From positions 1 through 35,048 of IMG/VR virus record IMGVR_UViG_3300045243_000006: a DNA stretch of 35,048 bases. One strand, given 5' to 3'. The translations under genes and the position numbers were made by a program. Origin of the DNA: a virus. The notes under the pieces were generated by a model that did no database searches, had not been told where the DNA came from, and worked only from the letters and a program-made list of their open reading frames with translations. Shown piece by piece: positions 2,091 through 30,016 of this stretch; position 1 is the stretch's first letter; each line of letters starts with the position of its first letter.

Positions 2091-3320
2091 ATGCCACTTG
2101 CAAAAGGGTCAAGTCAAGCTGTCATTTCTCAAAATATTGAGGAATTGATGAATGCAGGACACAGCAGAGAACAAGCCGCTGCCATTGCTTATAAAGAAGC
2201 TGGAAAAGATACGGCTGATAGTGCGCGTGAAGTGGATAATAATGGATGGATTGAAGTAAAAAACAACCCATTATCGAAAGTTGGTGTGTTTCCTTATTCG
2301 GGCGGACAAGTAGGAGGAGACCCTACAAAGATTTATAATGTTTATAGGCCAGCAGAGGAATTATCACATCCAGAGGCAATAGATTCTTTGAAGTTAATAC
2401 CATGGGTAAATGACCATGTAATGCTCGGAAGTAGTAAAGATGGATTAACACCAGCCGAAGAGAAAGGCGTAGAAGGTGTTATCGGAGAGGATGTTTATTT
2501 TAAGGACGGAATTTTATATGGGAATATTAAAATATTTTCTGAAAATCTCGCAAACTTAATAGAAGACGGCAAGAAGCAATTAAGCGCGGGATATCGTTGC
2601 GTTTATGATTTTGTAAGCGGTGTTTTTAATGGACAACCTTACGATGCGATACAGAAAAATATTAGATTCAATCACTTAGCTTTAGTGGATGAAGGTAGAA
2701 TGGGTAAGGAAGTTGCCGTATTAGACCACGTTTATACTTATGATTCAATCGACATAAAGGAGTTCAAAATGTCAGAAAAAGAAGACGAACAAAAGAAGGC
2801 AATGGATGCTATGTCAGCACAGCTTGCAAAAGCTTTAGATGACATTGAAGACCTCAAGAAAAAAGCTGAGGAAAAAAAAGCAGAAGATGCTGAAGAAGAC
2901 AAAGAGAAAGAGAAAAAAGCCGAAGACGATAAAGACGATGAAATGGCTTTGGATGAAGATAAAGACAAAGACGATGAAAAAAAAGGCATGGATAAGGCCG
3001 CAATGGATGCAGCTTTTGACGCTAAATTTGAAGGCCTTAAAAAGTCTATGTTTTCTGAAGTCACAAAACGTAATGCCTTGGCTGAACGCGCTTCTTACGA
3101 CATTGGTACTTTTGATAGTTCTGAAATGACGTTGAATGAAACGGCGGCTTATATTGTTGAAAAGCTAGGCATTCATTGCCCTAAAGGTTCAGAGCATATC
3201 GCCCTTGATGCGTATTATCATAGTCGTCCTGTTGATAAAACAGCATATGCCCTTGATGCTAATGTTAAACCAAAAGAGGGTGTGTTTACAGACTTCTTAA
3301 AAAATAAAGGAGATAAATAA
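2091..3320 (+). CDS. DUF2213-type prohead protease fused to scaffold, 409 aa
   Basis: Three parts are visible. Residues 1-45 (MPLAKGSSQAVISQNIEEL, then QAAAIAYKEAGKD) match a small module that is often free-standing. Residues ~50-220 are the DUF2213 domain: VYRPAEELSHPEAIDSLKLI, the probable catalytic His in WVNDHVML, GVIGEDVYFKDGILYGNIKI, and the probable catalytic Ser in KKQLSAGYRC, then HLALVDEGRMG. Residues ~227-320 are a very acidic/Lys-rich coiled coil typical of scaffolds. The C-terminus is a compact domain. It would assist capsid assembly and then cleave itself and the coat proteins. An internal start at 2769 likely makes free scaffold. It overlaps the next start (TAATG). Confidence 0.85.
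   Translation: MPLAKGSSQAVISQNIEELMNAGHSREQAAAIAYKEAGKDTADSAREVDNNGWIEVKNNPLSKVGVFPYSGGQVGGDPTKIYNVYRPAEELSHPEAIDSLKLIPWVNDHVMLGSSKDGLTPAEEKGVEGVIGEDVYFKDGILYGNIKIFSENLANLIEDGKKQLSAGYRCVYDFVSGVFNGQPYDAIQKNIRFNHLALVDEGRMGKEVAVLDHVYTYDSIDIKEFKMSEKEDEQKKAMDAMSAQLAKALDDIEDLKKKAEEKKAEDAEEDKEKEKKAEDDKDDEMALDEDKDKDDEKKGMDKAAMDAAFDAKFEGLKKSMFSEVTKRNALAERASYDIGTFDSSEMTLNETAAYIVEKLGIHCPKGSEHIALDAYYHSRPVDKTAYALDANVKPKEGVFTDFLKNKGDK
2769..3320 (+). CDS. Nested in-frame scaffold protein, 183 aa (internal start in the protease gene)
   Basis: The codon for Met227 of the protease-scaffold is preceded by AAAGGAG at 2756-2762, with 6 nt to ATG at 2769, one of the best SD sites in the window and better than that of the full-length gene. 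The product (MSEKEDEQKKAMDAMSAQL...) is exactly the scaffold portion: a heptad-rich Lys/Glu/Asp segment, then a C-terminal domain that would contact coat protein. The arrangement repeats the known lambda C/Nu3 design, in which scaffold is made in excess from a start inside the protease gene. The position is seen; the function is by analogy. Confidence 0.7.
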   Translation: MSEKEDEQKKAMDAMSAQLAKALDDIEDLKKKAEEKKAEDAEEDKEKEKKAEDDKDDEMALDEDKDKDDEKKGMDKAAMDAAFDAKFEGLKKSMFSEVTKRNALAERASYDIGTFDSSEMTLNETAAYIVEKLGIHCPKGSEHIALDAYYHSRPVDKTAYALDANVKPKEGVFTDFLKNKGDK

Positions 3321-4288
3321 TGGTAGGATTTCCACAACAAGCACCACTGACTACATATTCAGGTGCGGCAACTCCTGGTGATATCGCTTTTGATGCGCCA
3401 ATGAATGCCAGCACTTATAATTTATATTCAGCTGGCACGCCTAATAAAGTAGGTTACGCTTATACAGTAACTAATGGCGCAATTCCTAATGGTTCTGCTG
3501 TCGCTCCTAATGCGGGTACGGCAACAGTTGGTGGTACTGGCAAATTTGCTGGTATTCTAGTGCAATCTAAACAATATGTTGGATACGGCACGACTTCCGG
3601 TGGTCCACTTGCTCCTACACTTACTCTCCCAGATTATCAATGGGGCGAACTTTGCTATTTCGGTCAAGTTTGGGTATATATGGACAATATTCCTAATATT
3701 GGTGATTTGGTAACTTATGACCCGCTAGACGGCTCGATTTCATCCATTACGCCAACTGTTAATTTTGTCGGTTCAAGTTCAACTACAACTCTTACAGTAG
3801 CTTCGATTTCTTCCGGACGTATTTATGTTGGTATGCTTATCGGAACTCCTGCGAATCCGGGTGTGACTCCAGGTACTTTTATCACAGCTTTAGGCTCTGG
3901 TTTGGGTGGTACAGGCACTTACACAATTAGCGTAAGTCAAAGTATTGCTGGTTCTACAGCTATAACAGCTCCTAACATTCCAGCTCCTGCATTTTCGGGT
4001 ACTGCGACATGTTCTACCACAACTATGACAGTGGCAACTGTTGTATCTGGTCAAGTTTATGTCGGTATGCCTGTTAATGCGGCAACAGGATTCCCAGCAG
4101 GAACTGTAGTTACAGCTTTCGGTTCGGGCGTGGGTGGCACTGGAACATATACTATTAACACTAGCCAAACAGTAAGCCCAGCAGTAGCGATTACTGATAC
4201 CGCTAATGTTTTAATCCCGAATGCGATTGTATCGCATTTTGATGTAACAACCGCAGGGCTGGCCGTTATCAGCATGACAAATCCATAG
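3320..4288 (+). CDS. Probable capsid decoration/structural protein with two inserted beta repeats, 322 aa
   Basis: It lies between scaffold and major capsid, where decoration proteins of DUF2190 type are found. The N-terminal ~147 residues (GDIAFDAPMNAS, then GKFAGILVQSKQYVGYG, GDLVTYDPLDGSISSI) and the last ~28 residues (VLIPNAIVSHFDVTTAGLAVISM) read as one small beta-barrel domain. Between them are two ~70-residue Gly/Thr/Ser-rich repeats (about 148-217 and 224-292), each with VGM and GSGxGGTGTYTI. ATG overlaps the stop of the protease gene (TAATG). An exposed capsid-surface ornament is inferred. No transmembrane or signal segment. Confidence 0.7.
   Translation: MVGFPQQAPLTTYSGAATPGDIAFDAPMNASTYNLYSAGTPNKVGYAYTVTNGAIPNGSAVAPNAGTATVGGTGKFAGILVQSKQYVGYGTTSGGPLAPTLTLPDYQWGELCYFGQVWVYMDNIPNIGDLVTYDPLDGSISSITPTVNFVGSSSTTTLTVASISSGRIYVGMLIGTPANPGVTPGTFITALGSGLGGTGTYTISVSQSIAGSTAITAPNIPAPAFSGTATCSTTTMTVATVVSGQVYVGMPVNAATGFPAGTVVTAFGSGVGGTGTYTINTSQTVSPAVAITDTANVLIPNAIVSHFDVTTAGLAVISMTNP
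3761..4195 (+). repeat. Two tandem ~70-residue beta-domain repeats within the decoration-like protein
   Basis: Copy 1 (about 3761-3970) and copy 2 (about 3989-4195) encode aligned segments: STTTLTVASISSGRIYVGM and STTTMTVATVVSGQVYVGM, then GSGLGGTGTYTISVSQS and GSGVGGTGTYTINTSQT. The protein repeats are clearly related while the DNA has diverged, so this is an old duplication. Confidence 0.75.
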
Positions 4289-4299
4289 GAGTTAAATAA

Positions 4300-5433
4300 A
4301 TGAGAGAAGCAACCCCAATTTTAAGTCATTTTAGCGGTCGTGAAATAGCGGCTATAAATGGATTTAAACCAAGAAACGCCGCAGACGGTCATTATTCAAT
4401 GGATTCGATGGAGTCTATTGCCGAATTGCAAAAAGCTGGCATTTATCTAAATCGTTATAATACGCGTGATGCAATGGACGCTATTCAGCCATTAATCAGT
4501 ACAGCATCAGTCGGTACTCCAGTACAGTTCGTGCAAGCATTCTTGCCTGGACTTGTAAGGGCAGTGACTAACGCTAAATTGATGGATGAAATCGTTGGCG
4601 TTACTACTATCGGTACTTTCAAAGATGAGCAAATCGTTCAGTTATTCGTTGAAAATACTGGTGTAGCAACACTTTACGCAGATACATCAAATGTACCAAT
4701 GTCGGGTTTTAACCAAAATTTCGTATGGCGTGATGTGGTTCGTTATGAATCGGGTTTCGAAGTTGAGATTTTGGAAGAAATGCGTGGCGATGCTATGCGT
4801 ATTAATGTAGCAAATGAAAAGCGTCTTTCGGTTACTGATTTCGTATTGGAAAGAGCAAGAAATGAAGTGGGATTCTACGGCTATAATAGCGGTAATAATA
4901 ACACTTATGGTTTCTTGACTGACCCAAATTTACCAGCTTATGTAACTGTTGCTACAGGTGCGGTTTCAAGCTCTAAATTATGGGCTAATAAAACTTTCTT
5001 AGAAATCATTAACGATTTGCTTTTAGCTATTCAGTCATTGCGTACACAAACTGGTGAGCAGATTAATCCTAAACGCGTTCCTCTTACTTTGGTGTGTTCG
5101 ACTGCGGTTGTGGATTATCTAAGCAAGCCTACTGATTTCCCAGGCCAAACTGCATTAACATGGTTACAAGCAAATTATCCTGGTATTCGTGTTATTTCAG
5201 CGCCTGAATTAAACGGTGCGAATGGTGGAGCTAACGTGTTCTATCTATTCGCAGACCGTGTTGAAGATGGTTCTACCGATGGTGGGGCAACCTTTATTCA
5301 GATGGTTCCTGTTAAATTTATGACTACTGGTGTAATAAAAGTTCTAAAAGGTTACAAAGAAAGCTTTGCAAATGCTTTAGCTGGTGTATTCTGTAAACGT
5401 CCCTTCGCCGTGTTTAGGGCAAGTGGCATATAA
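4300..5433 (+). CDS. Major capsid protein, DUF2184 type, 377 aa
   Basis: Expected HK97-fold coat subunit of the icosahedral head. The size, the position after scaffold and decoration genes, and recognisable segments support the DUF2184 family: TASVGTPVQFVQAFLPGLVR near residue 70, a central YADTSNVPMSGFNQNF with VVRYESGFEVEILEEMR, RARNEVGFYGYN, and a C-terminal MVPVKFMTTGVIKVLKGYKE with KRPFAVFRASGI. The SD GGAG precedes ATG by 8 nt. There is 11 nt between genes. The N-terminal ~50 residues may be the part removed by the DUF2213 protease, which is inference. Confidence 0.88.
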   Translation: MREATPILSHFSGREIAAINGFKPRNAADGHYSMDSMESIAELQKAGIYLNRYNTRDAMDAIQPLISTASVGTPVQFVQAFLPGLVRAVTNAKLMDEIVGVTTIGTFKDEQIVQLFVENTGVATLYADTSNVPMSGFNQNFVWRDVVRYESGFEVEILEEMRGDAMRINVANEKRLSVTDFVLERARNEVGFYGYNSGNNNTYGFLTDPNLPAYVTVATGAVSSSKLWANKTFLEIINDLLLAIQSLRTQTGEQINPKRVPLTLVCSTAVVDYLSKPTDFPGQTALTWLQANYPGIRVISAPELNGANGGANVFYLFADRVEDGSTDGGATFIQMVPVKFMTTGVIKVLKGYKESFANALAGVFCKRPFAVFRASGI

Positions 5434-5461
5434 CAGATACATTTAACTTATAGGAAGAGCT

Positions 5462-5851
5462 ATGCCTTATATTTATTCTACACTTACGAATGATGTTGAT
5501 TATGCGACTTATAAATACGATACGCCTTTGGCCAATGGTCATAAACAGGCACGTTTAGATAGGTCAATTATTATAAAAGGTGGTACGAATGTCGCCACGC
5601 CGATAAAAAGGCGTGGTGGCGAGCCTGATACTCCAATTGGAGTCAGAACGGAAGTTACAAGAGAAGAAATGGCTTTATTGATGGAAAATGAAACCTTTCT
5701 TGAGCATATGAAAAAAGGCTTTATTAAAGAAGATAGTCGTAAAGTTGACCCTGAAAAGTTAGCTGCAAAGATGGACATAAAAGACCCATCACGCCCACGC
5801 ACTCCTGAAACTGATAAAGCCAGTAGAATTCCAGTGGCACAAGTTGCCTAG
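5462..5851 (+). CDS. Hypothetical head-associated protein, 129 aa
   Basis: I cannot name a function. It is polar, with a Tyr-rich start (MPYIYSTLTNDVDYATYKYD) and a Pro/Arg/Lys-rich, probably flexible C-terminus (DPSRPRTPETDKASRIPVA). Proteins with this kind of beginning are common between coat and DUF4054 connector genes in related myoviruses, so a structural or connector-accessory role is likely. GGAAGAG lies just before ATG. The coding DNA holds two neighbouring inverted repeats at 5592-5619 and 5630-5643. Confidence 0.6.
   Translation: MPYIYSTLTNDVDYATYKYDTPLANGHKQARLDRSIIIKGGTNVATPIKRRGGEPDTPIGVRTEVTREEMALLMENETFLEHMKKGFIKEDSRKVDPEKLAAKMDIKDPSRPRTPETDKASRIPVAQVA
5592..5643 (+). repeat. 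Two adjacent inverted repeats inside the 129-aa gene
   Basis: CCACGCC (5595-5601) and GGCGTGG (5610-5616) enclose an 8-nt loop; with G-U pairs the RNA stem extends to about 10 bp. Fourteen bases later, ACTCCAATTGGAGT (5630-5643) is a perfect 14-bp palindrome. Both lie within codons, so they may be chance. Confidence 0.3.
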
Positions 5852-5859
5852 GAGATTAT

Positions 5860-6309
5860 ATGACTAATGTTATATTTAATCCCGCATTATTCAGGGAGCA
5901 ATATCCCGCATTCCAATGTACTCCTCCAGCATCCGATTCGGTATTGCAGGGGTATTTTGATATGGCGACAGCTTATATAAGTAATAGGAATTGCCGTAAT
6001 TATTGCTATCTTGGTAGAATGTCTTTAGCGCAACAAACTCAAGCGTTGTATTTAATGACGGCGCATTTAGGTACTATTGCACGTTCTGTTTATAATAACG
6101 ATGCTATTGGCGTGATGACTCAAGCTACCGTGGATAAAGTTTCGGTAACACTTGAGCCTCCTCCCGCTTTAAATCAATGGCAATATTGGTTAAACTCTAC
6201 TCCTTATGGTCAGCAATTATTAGCGTTACTACAGGTAATTTCAGTTGGTGGTTATTTTGTAGGAGGGAGGCCAGAGCTTGCGGCCTTTAGACGTGCGGGA
6301 TGGAATTAA
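5860..6309 (+). CDS. DUF4054-type head-tail connector protein, 149 aa
   Basis: Adaptor that closes the portal vertex and accepts the tail. The family pattern is clear: FNPALFREQYPAFQ at the start, then helices with YLMTAHLGTIAR, AtvDKVSVTLEPPPA and the aromatic NQWQYWLNSTPYGQQLLALL, ending FVGGRPELAAFRRAG. GGAG is 5 nt before ATG. The 3' end overlaps the next gene by 10 nt, as is normal in compact neck modules. Confidence 0.8.
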   Translation: MTNVIFNPALFREQYPAFQCTPPASDSVLQGYFDMATAYISNRNCRNYCYLGRMSLAQQTQALYLMTAHLGTIARSVYNNDAIGVMTQATVDKVSVTLEPPPALNQWQYWLNSTPYGQQLLALLQVISVGGYFVGGRPELAAFRRAGWN

Positions 6310-7736: not shown

Positions 7737-9242
7737 ATGACAACCACTATTCCAATTAGCCGCTATGTAGCCATTACCTCTGGCGTGGTCGGAGCCGCAG
7801 CAGTTCCAGAAAGGGAATTAATAGGCCGTTTCTTTACTGAAAACCCACTTGCGCCGACTGATACTGTTTTAGAATTTGAATCGGCAGCGGACGTAGGTAC
7901 GTATTTTGGCTCGACTTCTGATGAATATAAACGCGCCGTTTTCTATTTCGGATGGGTGAGCAAAAATGATACTGCACCGCAGAAAATCAGTTTTGCAAGA
8001 TGGGCGAATGTTGATGTAGCATCTACGATTTATGGTAATGTAGCTACTTATTCTGTAAGTCAATTTACCAGCGTTACAACTGGTGATTTTACACTTACTC
8101 TTGGTGGATTTACTCATCATCTCACAGGTATTGATACACATTTGGCAGGTAGCCTTGCAACGGTAGCTACTGATATTCAAACGGCTATACAAGCTTTTTC
8201 AGGTGGTGGCACGGCATGGACTTCTGCGACTGTAACTTATAATTCAACTCGTAAATCTTTTGATTTAGTTTCTGGTGATGTTGGTGATGATACTATTGCT
8301 GTGACTGCGGGTGTTGTTGTAGATATGGCTGCTTTATTGGGTTGGGAAACTGGTGCGATATTCTCCAATGGTCAAGATGCTCAAACCATTACCGAAGTGC
8401 TTACAGCTTCGGCAAGTACATCAAATAATTTCGGCTCATTTACATTTATTCCATCTTTGACACTTGATGAAGTTACCGAAGCTGCTGAATGGAATAATGC
8501 ACAAAATGTACAGTTTATTTATTCAGTCGCTGTATCGGCTGCGAACGCTTCGGCATGGAATGCGGCTTTGGCAGATATCGGAGGTGTAACTCTTACACTT
8601 GCTCCATTATCTACTGAATACCCAGAAGAAGCCCCAATGATGATATTTGCGGCAACTGATTATGAAAAACGTAACAGTGTACAAAACTACGAATTCCAAC
8701 AGTTCAATTTAACGCAGTCAGTCTCAACAACTGCTAACGCTGATTTGTACGATGGACTAAGCATTAACTATTACGGCCAGACACAAAACGCAGGACAGTT
8801 AATATCATTCTATCAACGTGGTGTGATGTTTGGCTTGCCAGTAGACCCGATAGACCAGAATCTTTATGCAAACGAGATTTGGCTTAAAGCGGCAATGACA
8901 TCTTCATTGATGACTCTGTTACTAGCTCTATCTCAATTATCAGCAAACGCAACAGGACGGGCGCAAGTTTTAACAATCATCCAAGGTGTGATTAATCGCG
9001 GTTTGACTAACGGTGTTATTTCAGTTGGTAAGACTCTTTCCGATATTCAGAAGGCTTATATCACCAATGCTACAGGTGACAACCTTGCATGGCATCAAGT
9101 GCAAAATAACGGTTACTGGATAGATGCGGAAGTCGTACCATACGTTGAGAGCTTAGTTACAAAGTACAAAATTGTTTATACTTTGATTTATAGCAAAGAT
9201 GACGTGATTAGAAAAATCGAAGGAAGCGACCAACTTATATAA
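7737..9242 (+). CDS. Contractile tail sheath protein, DUF3383 type, 501 aa
   Basis: Sheath subunit that contracts to drive the tube into the cell. The DUF3383 family is indicated by the N-terminal ISRYVAITSGVVGAAAVPERELIGRFFTENPL, the FESAADVGTYFGSTSDEYKRAVFYFGWVSKN block, and the C-terminal NGYWIDAEVVPYVES plus VYTLIYSKDDVIRKIEGSDQLI. The middle (residues ~110-200) is a variable surface domain rich in Thr/Gly. The long coding sequence with a GGAG SD, directly before a tube gene, makes the call firm. Confidence 0.9.
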   Translation: MTTTIPISRYVAITSGVVGAAAVPERELIGRFFTENPLAPTDTVLEFESAADVGTYFGSTSDEYKRAVFYFGWVSKNDTAPQKISFARWANVDVASTIYGNVATYSVSQFTSVTTGDFTLTLGGFTHHLTGIDTHLAGSLATVATDIQTAIQAFSGGGTAWTSATVTYNSTRKSFDLVSGDVGDDTIAVTAGVVVDMAALLGWETGAIFSNGQDAQTITEVLTASASTSNNFGSFTFIPSLTLDEVTEAAEWNNAQNVQFIYSVAVSAANASAWNAALADIGGVTLTLAPLSTEYPEEAPMMIFAATDYEKRNSVQNYEFQQFNLTQSVSTTANADLYDGLSINYYGQTQNAGQLISFYQRGVMFGLPVDPIDQNLYANEIWLKAAMTSSLMTLLLALSQLSANATGRAQVLTIIQGVINRGLTNGVISVGKTLSDIQKAYITNATGDNLAWHQVQNNGYWIDAEVVPYVESLVTKYKIVYTLIYSKDDVIRKIEGSDQLI

Positions 9243-24500: not shown

Positions 24501-24530
24501 TTTGCTGACGACATTGATGTCGTCAGCAAA
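24501..24530. terminator. Bidirectional hairpin between convergent late and early transcription units
   Basis: TTTGCTGACGACAT (24501-24514) and ATGTCGTCAGCAAA (24517-24530) are a perfect 14-bp inverted repeat with 2 bases between them. It lies between the last plus-strand gene (ends 24460) and the last minus-strand gene (ends 24535). Neither side has a long T-run, so Rho-independent strength may be modest, but position and symmetry suit a shared terminator. Confidence 0.75.
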
Positions 24531-28946: not shown

Positions 28947-29084
28947 TTATTTCTTTAAAATTTCTTCTAGTTTAGGCGACCATTGCGCAATCTTTGCTTT
29001 TAAAGCAGCATCCGAACTAAAAATTAGGAACAGCCCCAAACAAATTGTTACAGAGGTCGGTAAAAACATCACGGAAAATATCAC
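28947..29084 (-). CDS. Possible small membrane protein, 45 aa, overlapping another ORF
   Basis: GTG start at 29084, 5 nt after AGGGGG; product VIFSVMFLPTSVTICLGLFL, IFSSDAALKAKIAQWSPKLE, EILKK, with one hydrophobic segment and an amphipathic end. It overlaps the 42-aa ORF at 29017-29145 in another frame by 68 nt. One or both may be translated. Confidence 0.35.
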   Translation of the reverse strand: MIFSVMFLPTSVTICLGLFLIFSSDAALKAKIAQWSPKLEEILKK

Positions 29085-29145
29085 CGCAACCCCCTATCCA
29101 CGCACTTAAATCTGTTAACTGATTGATAATATATTTTTTAAACAT
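29017..29145 (-). CDS. Possible 42-aa protein, overlapping another ORF
   Basis: ATG at 29145 with AGGAT 8 nt upstream; product MFKKYIINQLTDLSAWIGGC, GDIFRDVFTDLCNNLFGAVP, NF. Amphipathic, with two Cys and many aromatic residues. Embedded overlap with the 45-aa ORF. It is the first ORF downstream of the VWA hairpin. Confidence 0.35.
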   Translation of the reverse strand: MFKKYIINQLTDLSAWIGGCGDIFRDVFTDLCNNLFGAVPNF

Positions 29146-29188: not shown

Positions 29189-29213
29189 GGGTGGGGATTA
29201 TTAGTCCCCACCC
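29189..29213 (-). terminator. Hairpin downstream of the VWA gene
   Basis: GGGTGGGGA (29189-29197) and TCCCCACCC (29205-29213) are a perfect 9-bp inverted repeat with a 7-nt loop, very GC-rich against AT-rich surroundings, 9 nt after the VWA stop on the transcript. On the minus strand no T-run follows; on the plus strand TTTCTTAATT does. A terminator or attenuator ending the VWA transcript is likely. Confidence 0.65.
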
Positions 29214-29221
29214 TTTCTTAA

Positions 29222-29824
29222 TTAGTCGTTTAACGCACCGTCAAAAGCCTTGTAGAAGTCAACTTCTTCAAGTTTCTTAACATCAACGATGTCATATTTA
29301 GCACCTGGAATAGCATCATCAAGTTTCGTAAGGAACGCATCCAAGTTAGCTGAGCGATTACCAACAGTCACAAAAGAAATTGCGAACTCATGCTCTTGCT
29401 TAAGTTTATTGGTAATGTTTGCTATAGTTGAGAATACTGCGTTAGCGTCCATAGGCTCACCATCAGTAAAGATAATAAGAACAGTTTGCTCATTCGCACG
29501 AGTTACATGTTCGTCATACGCCTTTTGGATAACGGCATCGGTTCTGGTGCCACCTTCAAGGTTTAAGCCAAGAATCTTATCAGCAACTTCGCTAATTTTA
29601 TCAGCAGCCACATCAGGAAAGGCGTGTACATTCATGCCAAACGCATAAAGAGATACACCATCGGTATCATATTTACTAGCTTCTGTAGCAAAAGTTCTAA
29701 ACTGTTCAGTCGCATATTTTATACGCGATAATCCTTGTGGACAATCTGTAGCTGACATCGAAGCGGATATATCCAAAGCAACAATAAAATCGTCACCTTG
29801 ATTTAATTCTAAATTATTACTCAT
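29222..29824 (-). CDS. von Willebrand factor A (VWA) domain protein with intact MIDAS, 200 aa
   Basis: The whole protein is one VWA domain. DFIVALDISASMSAT supplies the DxSxS metal site (D18, S20, S22), GGTRTD the MIDAS Thr (~T93), and LIIFTDGEP the distal Asp (D121). The Rossmann-like strands are regular (VSLYAFGMNV, FAISFVTVGNRSA). No signal peptide, membrane segment or second domain, so it is a soluble cytoplasmic protein. VWA proteins usually act as metal-dependent partner-binding modules, e.g. with MoxR ATPases or Ter proteins, but no partner is visible here. It has a strong SD (AGGAG), its own operator-promoter and a downstream hairpin, unlike its neighbours. Function in the phage unknown. 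Confidence 0.85.
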   Translation of the reverse strand: MSNNLELNQGDDFIVALDISASMSATDCPQGLSRIKYATEQFRTFATEASKYDTDGVSLYAFGMNVHAFPDVAADKISEVADKILGLNLEGGTRTDAVIQKAYDEHVTRANEQTVLIIFTDGEPMDANAVFSTIANITNKLKQEHEFAISFVTVGNRSANLDAFLTKLDDAIPGAKYDIVDVKKLEEVDFYKAFDGALND

Positions 29825-29864
29825 TTTAGTCTCCTAATAGTTATAGGCAAGATTGGCTTCTAAC

Positions 29865-29893
29865 TTTATATAGCGTGACTAGTCACGAGTCAA
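29865..29893 (-). promoter_or_regulatory. VWA promoter with a 14-bp palindromic operator in the spacer
   Basis: On the minus strand: TTGACT (29893-29888), 17-bp spacer, TATAAA (29870-29865), each 5 of 6 to consensus with ideal spacing. The spacer contains the perfect palindrome CGTGACTAGTCACG (29874-29887). A dimeric repressor bound there would block RNA polymerase. Leader about 34 nt. Confidence 0.7.
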
Positions 29894-29896
29894 CAA

Positions 29897-30016
29897 CTAT
29901 TTTCTACACTTCTCACATTTTACATGTAATCCATAAGAATCTATATGAGGGTAGTTAGGTTCTATTATGCAATTTGTTAGTATTAGGAGTAGAGCTAGTA
30001 CTAGTAGTTTATTCAT
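29897..30016 (-). CDS. Tiny putative lipoprotein, 39 aa
   Basis: Reads MNKLLVLALLLILTNCIIEP, then NYPHIDSYGLHVKCEKCRK. It has a positively charged start, a leucine-rich core and a lipobox-like LTNC, so signal peptidase II would release a 24-residue lipidated peptide with a C-terminal CEKC pair. It begins inside the end of the upstream gene (overlap of 8 nt, ATGAATAA), with AAGG 9 nt before ATG, and ends just before the VWA promoter. Small phage lipoproteins are known as superinfection-exclusion factors or outer spanins; which applies, if either, is unknown. Confidence 0.55.
   Translation of the reverse strand: MNKLLVLALLLILTNCIIEPNYPHIDSYGLHVKCEKCRK

Follow-up and report, generated by a model that had tools for sequence, protein, structure and literature searches.

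Viral VWA proteins have been tied to AAA+ chaperone pairs and to Ter-type sub-membrane systems (PMC7824862, PMC7911831, PMC4193335). vWFA is a core gene of the N4-like phages (PMC4193335), and Ter systems, which combine membrane components with vWA proteins, have been proposed to block phage entry (PMC7824862). Here we describe a VWA gene in an IMG/VR virus record of 35,048 bases, apparently incomplete (the whole stretch is called the window), together with related loci, which are given L numbers. Like gp25 of the gp25 vWFA/gp24 ATPase pair of N4-like phages (Schitoviridae), the window protein is a phage early VWA protein, and PHROG 1314 matches it weakly, over the C-terminal part only. However, the window family consists of a VWA domain only (200 aa) and does not have the long N-terminal region, and the window holds no AAA+ partner. 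One relative, L011, does carry an AAA+ ATPase beside its VWA gene, of a family that occurs commonly among the N4-like phages. The annotation of these proteins is not uniform: the product of 2335-3435 in Escherichia phage Pollock (L034) is called 'HNH endonuclease' with the note 'N4 gp25-like', while N4 gp25 is listed as vWFA. PHROG 1314 bears the same HNH label, yet matches the window VWA protein.

In the published model of the Ter system, TerF (PF10138) is a cytoplasmic vWA protein that acts with membrane components (PMC7824862), which resembles the pairing of a VWA protein with a membrane miniprotein reported below, but the TerF-like score of the window protein lies under the cut-off and TerD is missing. 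Distant relatives occur in the Streptomyces phages Karimac (gp173) and Samisti12 (tblastn with the L018 protein, about 42% over 80 aa, E about 3e-6; fold similarity, E 3.6e-9). The Karimac protein is longer (264 aa), is encoded inside a tRNA array and is similar to the window family over part of its length.

The VWA protein and its surroundings

Late genes of the window run on the + strand (28 to 24,460); the early genes occupy the - strand, from the right end down to about 24,535. Where the two sets converge there is a perfect 14-bp inverted repeat, TTTGCTGACGACAT/ATGTCGTCAGCAAA (24501-24530, arms 2 nt apart), which looks like a two-way transcription stop. The VWA gene (29824-29222, - strand; 200 aa) lies in or beside a recombination/replication module with Erf and a YqaJ-type exonuclease, and is preceded by the Shine-Dalgarno sequence AGGAGA (29835-29830, - strand). 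In Pfam, the protein matches PF00092 above the cut-off (1.9e-10; 41.7 bits, cut-off 23.8) and VWA_2 at 6e-10, whereas its match to vWA-TerF-like (PF10138; 4e-6) stays below it (27.5 bits, cut-off 29.4). The MIDAS is complete (D18-x-S20-x-S22, T93/T95, D121) and invariant in 15 of the 15 aligned VWA proteins. The same alignment revealed unusual, family-specific conserved flanking motifs, LELN.GD.FI on the N-terminal and DIV...L..VDF..A on the C-terminal side. A preliminary description of the locus had reported a strong Shine-Dalgarno sequence and a 200-aa VWA protein with all MIDAS residues, and both were borne out.

An AlphaFold2 model built from the alignment of 15 family members (pLDDT 88.6) was submitted to Foldseek, a check proposed in that description, and matched metal-binding VWA folds. 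The nearest solved structures are RGLG/copine-type and Rpn10 VWA domains, the best being the RGLG1 MIDAS VWA (8e-10), which binds calcium; these proteins differ in being eukaryotic, in sharing 12-21% identity and in having extra domains attached. No PADLOC anti-phage defence profile matched the VWA protein up to E 0.01.

The earlier account of the upstream side was incomplete, having overlooked a 39-aa lipoprotein-like ORF (29897-30016, - strand; MNKLLVLALLLILTNC...CEKCRK) directly upstream of the VWA promoter-like site. Its product has a hydrophobic stretch followed by LTNC, and CEKC near the C-terminus. The ORF overlaps its own upstream gene and ends at 29897, a few nucleotides before the -35-like element.

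Relatives and spread of the VWA gene

Scans of IMG/VR yielded about 15 distinct carriers of the VWA gene, with 47-71% identity to the window protein or to another member. In a tree, the window VWA groups with L011 and L002 with full support. When the other window proteins were compared with the fetched flanks of the VWA loci (rather than with whole genomes), only the YqaJ-type exonuclease (L004/L005) and one weak match (L003) were recovered. With most relatives VWA is the only gene shared in the stretches compared; the VWA gene thus moves between phages, as expected of an accessory gene that spreads horizontally. This agrees with its earlier description as an accessory gene, for which the identity range, the near-unrelated flanks, the varied neighbourhoods and the several temperate carriers all speak.

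The gene lies in or next to recombination/replication genes in the window, L003 (RecT), L005 (SSAP and exonuclease), L018 (Sak4), L019 (SSB) and L002 (DinG-type helicase and primase). In L014, L018 and L027 it is found between the recombination/replication module and an integrase gene, the integrase being close to the VWA-TM genes. The association with recombination genes is not constant, since the VWA gene adjoins a tRNA in L015 and, by eye, lysis-region genes in L026 and L030. Several carriers are temperate; an integrase was detected in 6 of the 17 VWA records at E <= 0.001, in five of them over the family cut-off. L027 appears to be an integrated prophage, because the phage is adjoined by a tRNA-Leu and by a gene of host type that, by eye, looks like diaminopimelate decarboxylase (from 9109 onwards). 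In L030 the VWA gene is apparently interrupted by an insert carrying other ORFs (4930-6100).

A near-identical copy of the L005 VWA gene is present on a 5.1-kb MAG contig (L006); the gene was not found in the remaining 397 of 398 bacterial genomes sampled from one phylum. Among the isolated phages of INPHARED, tblastn with the window, L011 or L027 VWA gave no match, and with the L018 VWA it gave the distant Streptomyces phages only. A literature search returned no paper on this VWA family. Directly upstream of the L002 VWA gene, positions 7897-7945 resemble a tRNA acceptor and T-arm with no other arms; ARAGORN made no call there, and Rfam gave only a weak tmRNA T-arm match. Rfam searches of the VWA flanks of the window and L003 gave nothing above curated cut-offs. 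An interpretation along Ro60/Y-RNA lines was dropped on these results.

A membrane miniprotein beside the VWA gene

According to the preliminary description no partner gene was visible; this is refuted by a small membrane-protein gene 76 nt downstream of the VWA gene (28947-29145, - strand), identified by homology to L027 and split into two frames at a G run. Its halves (29145-29017 and 29084-28947) align with an intact 65-aa protein encoded directly downstream of the L027 VWA gene, at 78% (18 aa) and 56% (45 aa) identity. L005 encodes a 66-aa protein in the same place, which aligns with that of L027 at 43% and, by eye, is related to the split window miniprotein. As the frame of the window gene is disrupted, the window pair may be inactive, or the contig may contain an indel error. 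The window miniprotein thus has its matches in L027 and L005, while its VWA protein groups with L011 and L002.

Small membrane ORFs adjoin the VWA gene at 10 of 13 informative loci, compared with 9% of same-strand genes. With one close group collapsed, this corresponds to a binomial P of about 8e-5, in a test that was framed post hoc and with gene calls that are crude in the GC-rich loci. A second miniprotein type is common to L018 and L031. A third type, in L017, L019 and L020, is encoded upstream and overlaps the VWA gene by 4 nt, so that the two genes are probably co-transcribed there. The first type (L027/L005) aligns with neither of the others; it is therefore a kind of partner that recurs, not one partner. 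Homologous miniproteins are thus retained next to VWA proteins that share only about half of their residues, both among the window, L027 and L005 and between L018 and L031. When the first and third types served as queries in reciprocal scans, VWA-bearing contigs alone were recovered. The predicted model of the miniprotein is weak (pLDDT 63). L003, L011 and L015 have no adjacent miniprotein; the AAA+ ATPase takes its place in L011, and L003 and L015 have neither.

The promoter-like site and the hairpin

Re-reading of the sequence upheld the reported letters TTGACT-17-TATAAA with a palindrome inside the spacer. The -35-like TTGACT (29893-29888, - strand) and the -10-like TATAAA (29870-29865, - strand) are separated by 17 nt, and this spacer opens with the perfect palindrome CGTGACTAGTCACG (29874-29887). 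The parts are ordinary: the window contains 25 promoter-like sites with at least 10/12 matches (23.8 +/- 4.8 in shuffled sequences) and four perfect 14-nt palindromes (3.1 +/- 2.0), both at chance level. Their coincidence is uncommon: 100 shuffles never placed a palindrome of 14 nt or longer inside a promoter-like spacer, and palindromes of 10 nt or longer arose there 0.17 times per window, for a feature that had been selected post hoc. An operator repeated in the window or common to relatives was rejected: CGTGACTAGTCACG has no second copy with up to two mismatches in the window, is absent from every related VWA locus, and the operator 20-mer is absent from all of IMG/VR. Nor is there a conserved promoter before the VWA gene, as the -10-like element is not conserved among relatives and, of 13 other loci, L026 alone has a site reaching 10/12 ahead of its VWA gene. 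From this distribution, an operator-promoter of the window VWA gene is possible but would be specific to this phage.

Downstream of the VWA stop codon lies a GC-rich hairpin, GGGTGGGG-9 nt-CCCCACCC (29213-29189, - strand), with an RNA MFE of -18.3 kcal/mol (z -2.0), stronger than 33 of the 34 other post-stop stretches on the same strand. The hairpin reported earlier is thus present, but its reading as the gene's own intrinsic terminator failed, as no U-tract follows on the VWA strand and the terminator scan did not call it. L002, L014/L016 and L027 have a hairpin at the corresponding position, before the membrane-protein gene, and so does L011, before the AAA+ gene. Those of L002, L014 and L027 are each the top post-stop structure of their locus, while that of L011 is average for its GC-rich surroundings; by reading, none of the relatives has a clear U-tract. 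The next gene starts about 20-70 nt past the hairpin in the window, L002 and L027. Since the U-tract is lacking and the hairpins mostly precede a membrane-protein gene in relatives, the element is better read as intercistronic than as a terminator.

Discussion

We suggest that the VWA protein is the soluble component of a phage module of two genes whose other product is a membrane miniprotein of about 60-75 aa, usually encoded next to it, and we put the chances of this reading at about even. It is based on the recurrent adjacency, the recurrent hairpin, the spread among otherwise unrelated phages and the invariant MIDAS. The VWA protein would be a cytoplasmic single-domain MIDAS protein that the miniprotein docks at the inner membrane; there, the divalent-metal site of the VWA protein may bind a target of phage or host origin. 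Most probably this would serve to alter the host membrane in infection or lysogeny, for example to block entry or exclude superinfecting phages; docking of a phage recombination/replication complex ranks second. In the window, the local promoter may help VWA expression. The hairpin may control how strongly the VWA and miniprotein cistrons are expressed relative to each other, or their relative stability. Very small phage-encoded inner-membrane proteins of superinfection exclusion, such as T4 Imm and HK97 gp15, are like the miniprotein in kind; we know of no VWA partner for them. Several observations count against the module: the window copy of the partner gene is frame-disrupted, the miniprotein families do not align, and three loci have no adjacent miniprotein. 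The annealing-protein, SSB and exonuclease neighbours would also fit a role in DNA metabolism.

Such a role, in which the VWA protein is an accessory recombination factor and anchors annealing or replication proteins at the membrane, draws on the position of the gene within or beside the recombination/replication genes of the window and five relatives. We nevertheless consider it improbable, as early regions hold recombination and replication genes anyway and the VWA genes of L015, L026 and L030 lie elsewhere. It is similarly doubtful that the protein serves as a MoxR-type co-chaperone of an AAA+ ATPase, as is thought for N4 gp24/gp25 or RavA-ViaA. The L011 VWA gene directly upstream of an ATPase gene of an N4-like family, and the core status of vWFA in those phages, agree with that idea, and a host ATPase could still serve. 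However, profile searches of the window, a partial record, detected neither MoxR-type AAA_5 nor AAA nor TerD genes, and in the 17 VWA records, themselves partial, one AAA (PF00004) match was obtained and, in another record, one AAA_5 match over the cut-off, far from the VWA gene. The association with MoxR or Ter systems on which the preliminary description had drawn was therefore not found beyond these isolated AAA matches. Least probable of all is a minimal module of the Ter type, TerF/TerY-like and acting in stress or superinfection: the pairing of vWA with membrane components and the proposed entry block of Ter systems would suit it, but the TerF-like match of the VWA protein is sub-threshold, the scanned window proteins gave no other Ter match, and TerD is present in none of the 17 records.

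The preliminary description had proposed a self-contained moron with its own operator-promoter and hairpin. As a stand-alone unit, the gene would be expressed in lysogeny from a promoter under repressor control and would end at a terminator of its own. The promoter and palindrome are real as sequence and seldom coincide in shuffled sequences, a 10/12 promoter also lies before the VWA gene of L026, and the gene is mobile, with temperate carriers. The mobile accessory character thus stands. Self-containment does not, given the recurrent membrane partner, the failed terminator and the unproven operator: sites and palindromes of this quality occur at chance level, the operator has no second copy and no counterpart in relatives, and the hairpin precedes a downstream gene. 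The search for relatives that the same description had called for also turned up the three loci in which the VWA gene overlaps its upstream neighbour and is likely to be co-transcribed with it. On balance we regard a stand-alone moron as unlikely, though somewhat less so than the co-chaperone and recombination alternatives.

A bolder form of the two-gene module, which we put forward tentatively, is that these loci represent an undescribed mobile two-component system, in which a stand-alone MIDAS VWA protein and interchangeable membrane miniproteins, replacing the AAA+ ATPase, would probably remodel or guard the host inner membrane, as in superinfection exclusion. VWA proteins are widespread in phages and their function is mostly unknown, the best-described ones being paired with AAA+ ATPases. 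A VWA family kept beside tiny membrane proteins in unrelated phages offers a concrete, testable partner.
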